From IMG/VR virus record IMGVR_UViG_3300025671_000174, positions 1 to 39,119 of that record: a DNA stretch of 39,119 bases. One strand, given 5' to 3'. Positions 4,119-19,558 of the stretch are shown here, piece after piece. The position numbers were made by a program, and so were the translations under genes. The notes under the pieces are model-generated. The model was not told the origin of the DNA and searched no databases. It saw only the letters and a program-made list of their open reading frames with translations. This DNA comes from a virus. The stretch's first letter is position 1, and every line of letters starts with the position of its first letter.

Positions 4119-4976
4119 ATGGGTAGTAAGACTACAACAAAACAAGAAATGGACCCGATCCAGAAGGAGTTCATTACAGAAACGCTCATCCCCTTTGCAA
4201 AAAACATAGCGGAAACTCCTTTCGAGCAATACACGGGCGAGTTTGTCCAGCCGTTTGACCCACTGCAAGAAACTGCATACGGCGGCTACGGCGCTCTTAC
4301 ATTACCCAGCGAGTTAACTGAAGCCGCGGACATATACCGCAGATTTGCCACTGAGACGCCAGAGCAACGCGCCGCAGATCTTAATGCGTATACACAACAG
4401 TATACACAAAACATCATTGACCCAACTATGGCGCGCATGGAGCGGCAGCGTGAAGAGCGGATGGTGGATCTCGCGCAGCGCCGCGGTAAAGGATTTGGCA
4501 ACACTGCATTTGGAGTGCGTGCCGGCTCCGAGCTCGACACATATGATATTGGCATGGCGGAAACTTTGGGGCAGTTACAGACGCAAGGCTACCAGAGCGC
4601 CGTGGCCAGAAAGGCGGCGGAAGACGCCCAGCGCATGCAGGCGGCGGGCTTGCTGGCTGGCACGGGGCAAACGGGCCTCAGTAATCAACTTGGCATCCTT
4701 GGCGCTCAAATGACTGCCGGCGAGGCGGCGCGGAGCTTGGGGCAGGCTGACTTGGATGCTCTGTATAGAGAGTTCGGCTTGGCACGCGCCTATCCTTTGA
4801 CACAGTTTGGCGTGCTCTCTGGCGCCAATGCGGGCTTCCCAGCGGGTATTGGCACAACGACCCAGACGACGGGTGGCTTGGGTACTATGATGTCTGGGCT
4901 TGGCAGAGGGTTGAGCGCATTTGGCTCTCTTGCATTTGGCGGGCCAACAGGATTAGGCGGATTTAGCGGGTTATAA
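4119..4976 (+). CDS. Internal virion / DNA ejection protein (candidate)
   Basis: A 285-residue protein. The N-terminal half is helical and charged, including ARMERQREERMVDLAQRRGKG near residue 105. The rest is rich in Gly, Ala and Gln with repeated GLLAGTGQTG-like turns. The C-terminal 45 residues (GGLGTMMSGLGRGLSAFG...) are hydrophobic and glycine-rich, as in phage proteins that insert into the host envelope during DNA entry. Position and style match the first of the usual three ejection proteins of short-tailed phages (T7 gp14, P22 gp7). The start has a reasonable ribosome site (GGAGG at 4108-4112) and the next gene begins two bases after the stop. The function is inferred from context. Confidence 0.6.
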   Translation: MGSKTTTKQEMDPIQKEFITETLIPFAKNIAETPFEQYTGEFVQPFDPLQETAYGGYGALTLPSELTEAADIYRRFATETPEQRAADLNAYTQQYTQNIIDPTMARMERQREERMVDLAQRRGKGFGNTAFGVRAGSELDTYDIGMAETLGQLQTQGYQSAVARKAAEDAQRMQAAGLLAGTGQTGLSNQLGILGAQMTAGEAARSLGQADLDALYREFGLARAYPLTQFGVLSGANAGFPAGIGTTTQTTGGLGTMMSGLGRGLSAFGSLAFGGPTGLGGFSGL

Positions 4977-10836: not shown

Positions 10837-11185
10837 GCCATACAAAGATAAACAAAAGCGCGTTGCGTACGCCAAAGCGTACGGATCAAAGTGGTATCAA
10901 AGAAACAAAGAAAAAGTTATCGCCAAGAACAGGCAACGCAGAAAGAGACAAAAGAAAGAGTGGATTGAGTGGAAAGCTCAACAGGCGTGCAACGACTGCG
11001 GCTTCAGCCACCCCGCTGCGCTGGACTTTCATCACATAAACAAAGATGACCCAGAAAACCGTGCCGTCTATCAACTTGTGCAGGGCGGGCAGTACAATAC
11101 GGCGGTCAAGGAGGCGGAGACAAAGTGCGTCTGCCTATGCGCAAACTGTCACCGCATCCTTCACTGGAACGAGCACTACGGATAA
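10835..11185 (+). CDS. HNH-family endonuclease-like protein
   Basis: About 116 residues from a TTG start at 10835 (GTG at 10823 is an alternative start in the same frame). The N-terminal third is very basic (YKDKQKRVAYAKAYGSKWYQ...RNRQRRKRQKK). The catalytic part shows CNDC, then LDFHHIN, then CVCLCANCHRILHW: two CxxC pairs that hold a structural zinc around the HNH beta-beta-alpha-metal core, with the HH pair as catalytic base region and the CHRILH helix. Such proteins nick or cut DNA and may act in packaging, as homing enzymes, or on host DNA. It is far from the terminase genes and overlaps the convergent M15 peptidase gene by 10 bases. Confidence 0.75.
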   Translation: MPYKDKQKRVAYAKAYGSKWYQRNKEKVIAKNRQRRKRQKKEWIEWKAQQACNDCGFSHPAALDFHHINKDDPENRAVYQLVQGGQYNTAVKEAETKCVCLCANCHRILHWNEHYG

Positions 11186-11562
11186 TCTTTCCACGGAAGC
11201 TGCCAATGCGGGCCGTCTGGAAATTTCCGCCAGTCGCCGCCCCACTCAATTTTGACTTTCTCATGGTCAGCGGCTTCCTTAATGATTGGCGCGATCTTAT
11301 GATACAGCGGCCAGTCCCAGCGTATCGCCCCGTCAACGTATGGCGCCATGTCTATGGCGTGTCCGGTCAGGTGCCGCGAGCGCATGGTGGTCGAGGCGCC
11401 TTTGGCGAGGAGCTCCTTCTGGCGCTCGACGGTACGCATGCCTTCGATGATGCACCAGTCAACGTCGTCGCTCCAGTCAATCGCAGTCTTCATAACGCGC
11501 ACAAGATCCTCGTGCACGCCCTCCAGCCGCTCCAGCGAGCGTTTGCCAAACTTAAAACCCAT
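11176..11562 (-). CDS. Endolysin: M15-family D-Ala/L-Ala peptidase
   Basis: A 128-residue protein with the M15 (VanY-like) pattern. SRHLTGHAIDMAP gives zinc ligands H64 and D71 in the SxHxxGxAxD motif, EGMRTVERQKELLAKG is the usual substrate-cleft helix, and DGPHWQLP provides the third ligand H119 with nearby acid D116. It would cut peptide links in cell-wall murein, like the T5 and A500 endolysins. There is no signal peptide or anchor helix, so it must pass through a holin pore. Several membrane proteins encoded just upstream on the same strand fit that. It is the last gene of the minus-strand cluster, one base after the previous stop. Confidence 0.85.
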   Translation of the reverse strand: MGFKFGKRSLERLEGVHEDLVRVMKTAIDWSDDVDWCIIEGMRTVERQKELLAKGASTTMRSRHLTGHAIDMAPYVDGAIRWDWPLYHKIAPIIKEAADHEKVKIEWGGDWRKFPDGPHWQLPWKDYP

Positions 11563-15672: not shown

Positions 15673-17871
15673 ATGAGCGAGGCATACTTCAGCAAAGTGC
15701 GTGAAAGCACCGTCAGCGAAATGCTCACAACCATAAAAGGCGGGCGCAACGAAATGCTCAACAAGGCGGCGTACACGCTGGGGCGCCACGCGCACTTGGC
15801 GCCGTCAAACATAGACGCGGCCATCATAGATCTGCACGCAGCGGCAAAGCAGGTCGGGCTGCACGACATCGAAATCAAAGCCACAATCGGCAGCGGCTTC
15901 AAGCGCGGCGGGGAAAACCCCAAGGTGCTCGAAGACAGCGACGCAAAGCCATTCACGGCCAGCGAGTTTGACCGTCTCATAGGCAAGCTGGCCAGCAAGG
16001 AAATGCTCACACGCGACGAGGAAACGCGCAAGGACAAGATCGACAAGGCGCGCAAGGCGTGGGAGGGAGGTGTCCCGATTTCTAGAGAAAGTAAGGACGC
16101 AGTGCGTCCTGCATTACTTTACCTAAACAATCGCGGCTTGCGCGCGTCTGCCGCGGTGGGCGCCGCAAGGTTCAGCCCAAACGTATACGACGGGCCAGCG
16201 ATACTCTTTCCCGCGCTGGATGAAGCCGGAGAGGTGCAGGGCATACAGGCAGTGCTCATCACGGCGGAGGGAAACAAGCGCGAGCACAGAGGCATCACGA
16301 AATACTCACGCGGCGTGATCGCCGGCAACTCAATGAGGATCGGCGACGAGCACGACGGGGGCGCCATCATCTTGGTCGAGGGGCCAGAGGATGCGCTCAG
16401 CGTAAAGCAGGCGGTGCAGGGGCACGCGGAGGCGACAATCGTGTGCACCTTCGGCAAGGCCGGCATGGCCACGTACAACGCGCCACGGGCGTCCGACGTG
16501 ACGATCTGCGCGGACCCTGACCTCGACGTGGACAAGGTGGCCGACGTCATACGCGGCGACGGGAGCACGTCGGTTTACGTCGTGCGCTTCAACGAGCTCG
16601 GCGTGGAGAACGTCGCCGACGCAAACGACTACCTACGCGAAGCCGGTGAAGAGAAGCTGCGGGAGGCGCTATCCTTGGCCAAGCCGGTCGAGCAAGCGCA
16701 GCAAGAGGCGGCGGAGGCGGAGATGAATTGGCCGACGCCATACGAGCCAGTTGATCCGGCAAGCATCCCACGTCGGCGCTGGATCTACGGCGCGCACTAC
16801 ATCCGCGGATACGTCAGCGTCGTGGCATCGCAGGGCGGCGCCGGAAAGACGTCCATGCAGAACGTGGAGGCGACGAGCATATGCCTCTGCCGTCCGCTGC
16901 TAGAGGAGCCGGTGCATGAACAGGTCAACGTGTGGGTGATCAACGGGGAAGATCCCTACGAGGAAATGCAGCGACGGTTCGCGGCAATCATGATCCACTA
17001 CAACATCAAGCCAGAGGAACTGCGCGGGCGCCTGTTCCTAGACGCGGGCCGCGACCTGATGATACAGTTTGCCAAGCAAACGCGCGACGGCATCGTGACA
17101 AATGACCAGCTTGCCGAGAAAATGATTGAGCGGATCAAGCAAAACAAAATCGGCTTGGTGATGTTGGACCCGTGGGTCGGGTTCAACGACATCAACGAAA
17201 ACGATAACGTCGCCATGAACGCGGCCGTGGCGCAGGCGCGGTGGATCGCGGACCAGACCGACGCGGCGGTGGTGCTAACGCATCACATACGCAAGTCAAA
17301 CGGCGAGGACGCGACAATCGACAGCGTCCGCGGCGCAGGTTCGCTGATCGGGGCGGCGCGTGCGGCGCGCATCATCAATAAGGTCAGCCAAGAAGACGCA
17401 CTGAAGCTGGGCGTGAACGAGCTCGAAAGCCTCGGCATATTCCGTGTGGACGACGGCAAGTCCAACTTGGCGCCTCCGGCCGCGAAGGCTCTGTATCGAC
17501 GTATGCACGGCGTGGAGCTACCAAACGGGGAATATGTGGGTGTGTGCATTCCGTTTAAAATGCCCGACTTATTCGACGGTGTAAGCGCCCGTGACGCGCA
17601 GGAGGTGCAGCGCCTGATCGGGGCGGCGGCGTCACGGGAGGAGCCGTATCGGTTGGATGCACGCGCCAAGCACTGGGCGGGCAACGCGGTGGCGGTGCAG
17701 CTTGATCTTGACGTGGCCAAGAAAAACGAAAAGGCGCGGGCAAAGGCGATACTCGCCAAGTGGGTCGAGACAAACGTGCTCAGCGTGGAGGAGTGGCCGG
17801 ATAAACGTGCGGGGCGCGACGTGCAGTGCGTCGTCGTGGGTGAATGGATCAGTGGAACGGAGATAGGGTGA
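15673..17871 (+). CDS. Toprim-AAA primase/helicase-type replication protein
   Basis: A 732-residue protein. An N-terminal ~190 residues without clear motif (a poxvirus D5/VirE-like or accessory part is possible) precede a Toprim domain: ILVEGPEDALSV (about 231-242, catalytic Glu) and TICADPDLDVDK (about 276-287, D-x-D). A RecA/RepA-like ATPase follows: Walker A SQGGAGKTS at about 386-394, Walker B IGLVMLDPWVGF near 495, and VVLTHHIRKS near 535 as a sensor motif. It should unwind DNA at the fork and may prime. No zinc-binding primase domain or polymerase is visible. No DNA polymerase gene exists in the window, so host polymerase is presumably recruited. GGAGAGAAGA precedes the ATG. Confidence 0.85.
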   Translation: MSEAYFSKVRESTVSEMLTTIKGGRNEMLNKAAYTLGRHAHLAPSNIDAAIIDLHAAAKQVGLHDIEIKATIGSGFKRGGENPKVLEDSDAKPFTASEFDRLIGKLASKEMLTRDEETRKDKIDKARKAWEGGVPISRESKDAVRPALLYLNNRGLRASAAVGAARFSPNVYDGPAILFPALDEAGEVQGIQAVLITAEGNKREHRGITKYSRGVIAGNSMRIGDEHDGGAIILVEGPEDALSVKQAVQGHAEATIVCTFGKAGMATYNAPRASDVTICADPDLDVDKVADVIRGDGSTSVYVVRFNELGVENVADANDYLREAGEEKLREALSLAKPVEQAQQEAAEAEMNWPTPYEPVDPASIPRRRWIYGAHYIRGYVSVVASQGGAGKTSMQNVEATSICLCRPLLEEPVHEQVNVWVINGEDPYEEMQRRFAAIMIHYNIKPEELRGRLFLDAGRDLMIQFAKQTRDGIVTNDQLAEKMIERIKQNKIGLVMLDPWVGFNDINENDNVAMNAAVAQARWIADQTDAAVVLTHHIRKSNGEDATIDSVRGAGSLIGAARAARIINKVSQEDALKLGVNELESLGIFRVDDGKSNLAPPAAKALYRRMHGVELPNGEYVGVCIPFKMPDLFDGVSARDAQEVQRLIGAAASREEPYRLDARAKHWAGNAVAVQLDLDVAKKNEKARAKAILAKWVETNVLSVEEWPDKRAGRDVQCVVVGEWISGTEIG

Positions 17872-18101: not shown

Positions 18102-18525
18102 GCCAATATACGAAAGCGAAGAGGACCGTAAAAACGAACAGGCGCTGGCGGATTATCTGGCGGAGCGTCACGACTTGCTGATGTATAAAATGCCGATCAA
18201 GCTGCACCTCGACTACTTTGCTACGAGAGGCGGCAGGGGCGTGGGCTTCTTCGAAATGCGGCGGCGAAAGGTCAATATGTACCACTACGACACGATGATG
18301 CTGGGGATGCATAAAATACAGTCGGCGCATAACTTAACGGCGGCGACCGGTTTGCCGTGTTTCTTCGTCGTGCAGTGGAACGACGCCAAGGGAATATGTA
18401 GGATACCGCCGGAGGAAAACGTAAGCGTCAGGTGGGATTGGGGCGGGCATAATAACCGCAACGACCCACAGGACATGGAGCCAGTGGCGTATTGGAACAT
18501 ATCTACATTTAAGGAGCTCAAGTGA
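18094..18525 (+). CDS. Conserved phage PD-(D/E)XK-like protein
   Basis: A 143-residue protein. An N-terminal glutamate helix (NEQALADYLAERHD) is followed by KLHLDYFA, then GFFEMRRRKVNMYHYDTMMLGMHKI, then TGLPCFFVVQWND and a terminal strand. A D on one strand, an E-x-(R/K) on the next strand, then a helix and a hydrophobic strand is the core order of PD-(D/E)XK nucleases. I know this phage family as a small protein near replication genes, without proven activity. D46 or so and the Glu of FFEMRRR would be catalytic; the lysine normally at the third position is replaced by Arg, which makes activity uncertain. Confidence 0.6.
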   Translation: MTRPIYESEEDRKNEQALADYLAERHDLLMYKMPIKLHLDYFATRGGRGVGFFEMRRRKVNMYHYDTMMLGMHKIQSAHNLTAATGLPCFFVVQWNDAKGICRIPPEENVSVRWDWGGHNNRNDPQDMEPVAYWNISTFKELK

Positions 18526-18794
18526 TGGCGGTGGACATTGACGTCGAAGAGTGGCCAGACATGGAGCGCCTTCAAAACGCGCCTCTGATCGGCAAGATCG
18601 TGTGGGACGAGGAGGATGGGATGGCGCGCATCATGTGGGCGCAGGCGCATTTGCCGTCAAACTTTGACCAGTACGGACGGAAGCAGGCGGAGCTCACTCT
18701 GGAGATGTGCAAGGACATCGTCATGCAGGCGGCGTTGCTGGGTGATGCCATGCTAGAGCAAATAAAGTGGGCCAAGGATGAGATGGAGCACTGA
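18525..18794 (+). CDS. Small acidic hypothetical protein
   Basis: An 89-residue protein, MAVDIDVEEWPDMERLQNAP onward. The ATG at 18525 is used because AAGGAG lies nine bases upstream; a GTG at 18522 is an alternative. The N-terminus is acidic, the middle contains strand-like IGKIVWDEEDGMARIMWAQ, and the C-terminal half is helical (CKDIVMQAALLGDAMLEQIK). The stop immediately precedes the repeat cluster at 18805. Function unknown. Confidence 0.6.
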   Translation: MAVDIDVEEWPDMERLQNAPLIGKIVWDEEDGMARIMWAQAHLPSNFDQYGRKQAELTLEMCKDIVMQAALLGDAMLEQIKWAKDEMEH

Positions 18795-18804
18795 GTGGGA
18801 CGTT

Positions 18805-18939
18805 CCACAGTTACCACAGTTCAACTGTGGAAGACTGCGGAACTGTGGTAAAAGAGGCCACTTTCAGTTCCACCACAGTTGTTGCATATATATATGCAAC
18901 TGTGGTGGTAACTGTGGACTAGGTGGAAACGAACTGTGG
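18805..18939. repeat. Iteron-like cluster: eight copies of AACTGTGG in both directions
   Basis: AACTGTGG starts at 18823, 18841, 18898, 18910 and 18932. Its complement CCACAGTT starts at 18805, 18814 and 18873. All eight are exact copies inside 135 bp with no real gene. The centre is a perfect 20-base palindrome, GTTGCATATATATATGCAAC (18881-18900), with an AT-only core flanked by inverted repeat copies. An AT-rich centre among oriented binding sites is what a replication origin or a strong operator looks like. It lies right after the replication genes and before the packaging genes. Which protein binds is unknown; the RHH, XRE or helicase proteins are candidates. Confidence 0.9.
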
Positions 18940-18958
18940 AAGGAGGAGGATCATTACC

Positions 18959-19558
18959 ATGGCTATCAGAAAGAAAAGGGTTACCGCGACGCAAGCAAAG
19001 CAGAGGGGGCGGGACGCAATGGGGCGGGTGGACGATCAGGCGCAGGTCATTAAGGCGGCAGTCTGGGGTCAGCTTAAACCGCTCGACGAGAAGGCGCGGG
19101 AGAAGACGAGTAAGTGGGGCGATAGGTTGCAGTCACTTGTGGCTCCGGATCTCGCTGGCCGCTTTGAGGCGGCATACGAGGCGCTGGGTGAGGCGGTGGA
19201 CGCAAACGACGTGAAGCGGACGCATGACATCGCAACGCAGCTTCTGAGAGCGTGGGACGTGCTGGAGAAGGCTGCGTTGGACGCGGGGCATCATCCGCTG
19301 CATGAGGATGCATACTGCATGGAGATGGACGACGGGCGCATCGTGTGCATCGCACTCGACGGCTGGGCGTCGCTGCGGCAAAAGTATCCAGAGTGGATCG
19401 TGTACAGCTTCAGCGACGCGGCAAGGGTGCTCTGCGCTGACTTCAGCGCGCGGTTTCTGGACGAGGCATTCAGTGCCTTCCCGAAAGCGCATGTGAAGAG
19501 TATAATTCGCAACGGCGAAGAGCATAGCCGTGACATCAATGACGAGATACCATGGTGA
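18959..19558 (+). CDS. Hypothetical protein, possible phage DNA-metabolism factor
   Basis: A 199-residue protein starting MAIRKKRVTATQAKQRGRDA. The start at 18959 is set by an exceptionally strong ribosome site (AAGGAGGAGGATCATT); an in-frame ATG at 18923 lies inside the repeat cluster. The first 25 residues are basic. Helices follow (LAGRFEAAYEALGEAVDANDVKRTHDIATQLLRAWDVLEKAALDAG), then a beta part (YCMEMDDGRIVCIALDGWASL). No motif recognised. As it begins 20 bp after the last repeat copy, it may be controlled by whatever binds there. Confidence 0.65.
   Translation: MAIRKKRVTATQAKQRGRDAMGRVDDQAQVIKAAVWGQLKPLDEKAREKTSKWGDRLQSLVAPDLAGRFEAAYEALGEAVDANDVKRTHDIATQLLRAWDVLEKAALDAGHHPLHEDAYCMEMDDGRIVCIALDGWASLRQKYPEWIVYSFSDAARVLCADFSARFLDEAFSAFPKAHVKSIIRNGEEHSRDINDEIPW

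Follow-up and report, generated by a model that had tools for sequence, protein, structure and literature searches.

The window analysed here, a complete IMG/VR virus record of 39,119 bases, carries a compact array of short repeats that in all likelihood is the replication origin of the phage, bound by its own helicase-primase, which would act as initiator through a C-terminal winged helix. Comparison of related genomes strongly suggests that binding of the array is a property of the helicase C-terminus, in which residues 713 and 664 each set one base of the repeated word. The origin function, like the assembly of a helicase hexamer and the melting of a central palindrome, is read from the anatomy of the locus and from precedent. 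The new element is an apparent natural specificity code, and the logic resembles that of SaPI Rep and P4 alpha, here set on an unrelated RecA-type motor.

The initial annotation had drawn attention to eight identical 8-mers, five in one direction and three in the other, around a perfect palindrome, and both a count and 200 simulated windows bear this out. On the two strands of the whole record AACTGTGG occurs exactly eight times, five on the plus and three on the minus strand, always within 18805-18939 and nowhere else in the 39,119 bases searched. Shuffling predicts 1.1 copies over the full window, and no more than 4 appeared in any of 100 shuffles. The best 8-mer cluster per 135 bp reached at most 5, usually 2-3, in the 200 first-order Markov windows; the real value is 8 and drops to 3 when the array is removed. 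The perfect 20-bp palindrome GTTGCATATATATATGCAAC has sites on both sides. On the likely annotation the interval is non-coding, since it lies between a stop at 18794 and an ATG at 18959. Its elements are as follows, with site centres given relative to the palindrome centre.

18805..18812, minus strand, putative binding site 1, reading AACTGTGG; centre -83
18814..18821, minus strand, putative binding site 2; centre -74
18823..18830, plus strand, putative binding site 3; centre -63
18833..18840, plus strand, ninth, degenerate site GACTGCGG (CTGCGG at 18835-18840); centre -53
18841..18848, plus strand, putative binding site 4; centre -45
18849..18872, no strand, spacer TAAAAGAGGCCACTTTCAGTTCCA from the left block to the inner site; its core recurs in relatives
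18873..18880, minus strand, putative binding site 5, inner, left of the palindrome; centre -15
18881..18900, no strand, AT-rich palindrome GTTGCATATATATATGCAAC; an inverted repeat in most relatives, with variable sequence
18898..18905, plus strand, putative binding site 6, inner, right of the palindrome; centre +12
18910..18917, plus strand, putative binding site 7; centre +24
18932..18939, plus strand, putative binding site 8; centre +46, adjoining the ribosome site of the 18959 gene
18959..19558, plus strand, the 18959 gene, which follows the array in relatives and forms its right-hand boundary

The array sits between replication and packaging functions: the gene for the helicase-primase (15673-17871) is followed by three small genes, including one for a PDDEXK nuclease, then by the array, the 18959 gene, a DUF6378 gene and the two terminase genes, small subunit first. 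The 18959 product matched no Pfam or PHROG family above noise. Elsewhere in this otherwise forward genome, a minus-strand block contains a Peptidase M15 domain (11176-11562, minus strand), a probable endolysin. Single-strand folding of the array region is strong (z -8.3), and the inverted binding sites account for it; an RNA or hairpin function was not adopted on this ground. The scan of the same region returned one weak terminator-like match and no Rfam family. The cumulative GC-skew minimum that might have marked an origin at 18.8-18.9 kb is absent: the skew climbs through the region with neither a minimum nor an inflection, which says little because nearly all genes point one way.

Three proteins, the large terminase, the helicase and the product of the 18959 gene, served as queries to gather relatives and yielded more than 300 loci, many of them overlapping records; the phage collection searched held no DNA-level relative of the record. 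The cluster is strongly conserved among these viruses and keeps its place between the same two genes: nearly all viruses with a complete interval have it after the helicase and ahead of the 18959 homologue. It follows the helicase stop directly in L058 and L080, and elsewhere up to ~2 kb of small genes intervene. Slot centres are kept at about -83, -74, -63, -53, -45, -15, +12, +24 (or +31) and +46 with fixed orientations, and these offsets and orientations are usually retained although the word itself differs. The -53 slot, degenerate in this record, holds a consensus site in L047, L081, L086 and others, and near relatives, L011 among them, have AAGTGTGG in place of site 4. Palindrome sequences vary (GTTACGTATATATACGTAAC, CTAGCGTATATTATACGCTAG, CTTGCATATATATATGCAAG and others) and are usually still inverted repeats; odd-centred versions missed by the automatic palindrome finder were identified by eye. 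The palindrome is likely to be the point of melting or assembly. An AGGCC / AGCC-TAAA-like core is kept in the spacer (18849-18872) of most relatives, and the spacer is a possible priming or melting element.

Across relatives the core of the word is [C/G]TGNGG, and a single N, which may be T, A, C or G depending on the virus, dominates each array. That some eight dispersed sites switch together is as expected if one protein reads them all. The arrays of L040-42 are only partly regular. The two inner sites (18870-18908, and the same slots in relatives) extend to [C/G]TGNGGNGG, where the second N often shifts with the first, which might reflect reading in an additional, overlapping register.

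The candidate reader is encoded upstream, and its relevant features are these.

15673..17871, plus strand, helicase-primase of 732 aa, the proposed initiator; identified by Pfam and by a PDB sequence match of its motor
17563..17868, plus strand, predicted winged-helix DNA-binding domain, residues 631-732; AlphaFold2, pLDDT 90.8
17662..17664, plus strand, codon of Arg664, a residue that varies together with motif position 3 (Arg with C, Gln with G)
17809..17811, plus strand, codon of Ala713, a wing-tip residue that varies together with motif position 6 (N)

The protein combines a Toprim domain (232-326), a RepA/RecA-type motor (AAA_25, 362-543) and the predicted C-terminal winged helix. Pfam assigns AAA_25 (E=1e-34), Toprim_3 and DUF7146, the motor matches RSF1010 RepA (1g8y, E=3e-4) in a PDB sequence search, and the P-loop GG.GK is invariant. 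No close cultured relative of the helicase was found, the best match having 35% identity over 44%. Residues 631-732 have no Pfam family and no PDB sequence relative; modelled by AlphaFold2 with 56 relatives, they form three helices and a two-stranded wing (mean pLDDT 90.8). In a structure search with this model the PDB matches listed are generic winged helices, with a best Z of 7.7 (all below 8); the entry for the P4 origin-binding domain, to which the domain may still be related, is absent among them. The model places residue 713 in the wing turn, at its tip, and residue 664 in the loop before the second helix; as 664 lies outside the recognition helix, its contact with the base may be indirect.

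The link between this domain and the array comes from covariation. When N was scored against every column of nine proteins encoded nearby, the single leader among broadly sampled columns was helicase residue 713, which lies close to the C-terminus within the motif DKR-A-GRD and had a normalised score of 0.66 that covered 0.94 of the label entropy. Columns of the PDDEXK nuclease also scored high, but on 20 rows from few clades only. A larger scan of 389 columns from the motor and C-terminal part of the helicase-primase in 90 genomes sharpened the picture: residue 713 mispredicted N in 2/90 genomes and the next best of the 389 columns in 20/90, while residue 664 made 0/90 errors for motif position 3 and the next best column 10/90. 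At residue 713, Ala, Thr or His goes with T, Gln with A, Asp or Asn with C, and Lys with G. Pairing of Gln with A, of Asp or Asn with C, of Lys with G and of a small or methyl side chain with T is chemically usual. The initial proposal of a phage-encoded binder is very probable, and covariation singles out the helicase, one of the candidates it had named. The 18959 product, another of them, gains no such support, as the motif was not predicted by columns from the rest of the scored neighbours, a set without the XRE protein.

The residue-base rule was fixed in writing before the next scan. Applied to new unique viruses, several from previously unseen clades (L163-L169, L182, L185), it named N correctly in 34/34 and position 3 correctly in 34/34. 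A further scan, mostly of a new group, again paired Gln with A (15 sequences) and Thr with T (one); the new residues seen there, Lys with G and Asn with C, extend the code and were not predicted beforehand. Context also appears to matter. Helicases with Gln at residue 711 (DQKKGR) go with GTGGGA instead of GTGGGG in five of six cases (L248, L252, L256, L260, L268 group), and those with DQKRGR have GTGTGC arrays (L249, L254), which suggests that further wing positions read further bases. An exception to the Gln-A pairing is AKRQAR, where Gln reads G (L085, L104). Among L085 and L102-L105, helicases ~97% identical have either G (AKRQAR) or A (DKRQAR) arrays, and the difference found consistently in the C-terminus is Ala or Asp at residue 710, a sign that context influences the wing. 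The apparent natural recognition code comprises two residues, possibly three.

These observations suggest a model of initiation. The C-terminal winged helix of each helicase-primase subunit would bind one octamer, with Ala713 at the wing tip reading motif position 6 and Arg664 reading position 3. Several subunits might then gather on both blocks of sites that flank the AT-rich palindrome; the palindrome would melt, allowing the RepA-type hexameric motor to load there and the Toprim domain to prime.

The covariation is compatible with any role of the bound helicase, and the array could instead be mainly an operator that switches the 18959 and terminase genes as helicase accumulates, the origin lying elsewhere. 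The last site adjoins the ribosome site of the 18959 gene, and the position between replication and packaging genes would suit such a switch. We nevertheless consider this unlikely. No sigma-70-like promoter was found at 18500-19100, the array lies behind the helicase gene and not ahead of it, and a helicase-primase would be an odd choice of dedicated repressor. The conserved AT-rich inverted repeat is, in addition, a feature of origins, and arrays directly behind the helicase gene are also found in bacterial loci of distant relatives.

It is very improbable that the covariation is an artefact of shared ancestry and that some other protein binds the array. The relatives are not independent and the comparison covered only proteins encoded near the array, yet a tree built without the last 82 helicase residues requires at least 15 changes of N and at least seven of position 3. 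In supported independent pairs, wherever the residue differed it moved with the base and never in the opposite direction: 7/7 cases at N=T, 5/5 at N=C and, for position 3, 4/4; for N=A, 3/3 pairs agree and one more has an unchanged residue, with only one of these tests reaching p<0.05 on its own. Where two closest relatives have a different N, they almost always have different residues at 713 as well, or at 710 in the G class. The large gap to the next column and the 34/34 on the test set argue in the same direction.

Binding by the small terminase, with the array as a packaging (pac) site, would fit a small terminase gene that begins ~0.9 kb downstream, as pac sites are often nearby, but is hardly credible when the best small and large terminase columns predict the motif poorly (0.44 and 0.49, against 0.66 for helicase 713) and the array remains behind the helicase in the bacterial loci of distant relatives; neither terminase was retained as a candidate binder. 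A host initiator or nucleoid protein, of which DnaA and IHF act at many phage origins, is about as improbable: the octamer does not match a DnaA box, and among the nearly identical viruses L019, L020 and L021 the motif changes together with the phage residue. L019 and L020, the closest pair, have a single difference in the 300-residue body and five C-terminal ones, including Q713D, and their arrays read A and C, respectively; L021, with His713, has a T array. The initial annotation had already excluded a DnaA-box cluster, and rightly so: the sites read AACTGTGG, and the flanking bases restore no TTATCCACA-like 9-mer.

A replication origin read by the helicase-primase has clear parallels. Through a C-terminal domain, the helicases SaPI Rep and SCCmec Cch2 recognise short repeats that directly follow the gene for the helicase itself, and a self-loading initiator has been proposed for them (PMC7581432). 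The phage locus shares the short repeats near the helicase gene, and here the C-terminal reader is predicted from the model and from covariation. The motors of SaPI Rep and Cch2 belong to the DUF927 and D5_N/Primase_Cterm families, with archaeo-eukaryotic-type primases, whereas the phage protein has a RepA/RecA-type motor fused to Toprim and, according to Pfam, neither DUF927 nor D5_N/Primase_Cterm. In the phage system, moreover, specificity maps to single residues across ~130 natural genomes.

P4 alpha joins primase, helicase and a C-terminal winged-helix origin-binding domain in one polypeptide, and its ori and crr contain octamers in both orientations. The phage protein likewise unites primase, helicase and a predicted winged-helix reader, with octamers in both orientations, but its motor and primase are of other families, and P4 has a second array (crr) where this record has one. 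RSF1010 oriV is also an iteron-based origin, and its RepA (1g8y) is the match of the phage motor; there, helicase, primase and iteron binder are three proteins (RepA, RepB and RepC), whereas here they are apparently one. Origins of the oriC type similarly have clustered short sites adjoining an AT-rich stretch, those sites being DnaA boxes, of which this sequence has none, and the probable reader here is the phage helicase. As SaPI Rep and P4 alpha work on the same principle, this is not a wholly new type of origin; of the earlier suggestion of an origin or operator of an unlisted type, origin is the best reading, and the claim of full novelty falls away.

We lean towards the view that the locus belongs to a widespread family of replicators in phages and prophages that has so far gone undescribed. 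In this family one RepA-type helicase-primase would carry its own winged-helix origin reader and a readable residue-base code (713 and 664, with 711 affecting the last base), the origin word of an unseen phage would be predictable from the protein alone, and close phages would diverge into mutually non-recognizing replicons. Neither the code nor the family was found in the open papers searched, a search that left subscription journals aside. Origins of uncultured phages are usually guessed from sequence composition, and here a candidate origin and its reader are identified jointly, within a large aquatic phage group and, in less complete form, in alphaproteobacterial loci. The natural variants form a ready-made specificity series of near-identical domains, each apparently specific for A, C, T or G at a single position. 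With this series two questions become testable, namely how a wing reads a single base and why the origin word keeps changing at all sites together; for the latter, one explanation may be that related phages compete with or exclude one another.

The more distant relatives extend the pattern. Among 28 bacterial loci, mostly alphaproteobacterial and probably prophages, with helicases mostly of 31-58% identity, the stretch behind the helicase gene held a denser cluster of short words than any control from the same locus in 17 (chance expectation ~0.9). The words include GTGGGGC, GTGCGGC, GTGGCGC, GGTGGAG and ATGGCGC, and several of the arrays likewise flank a TTATA-centred inverted repeat. A second type of helicase C-terminus with a QRK-containing wing occurs in L224, L231, L232, L237, L296 and L318, where clusters of ATGGCGC / GGCGCA words lie behind the gene. 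A Bartonella run-off replication origin near a phage helicase was also considered; that helicase has been termed Twinkle-like (PMC2697382). Of the cultured phages, Rhizobium phage RHph_X2_26 has no array near its helicase. Microcystis phage Mae-Yong1326-1 (L327) may carry the same kind of replicator; at ~4230-4450, directly behind a RecA-family ATPase gene, it has GACTGGCGCAA-like repeats in both orientations.
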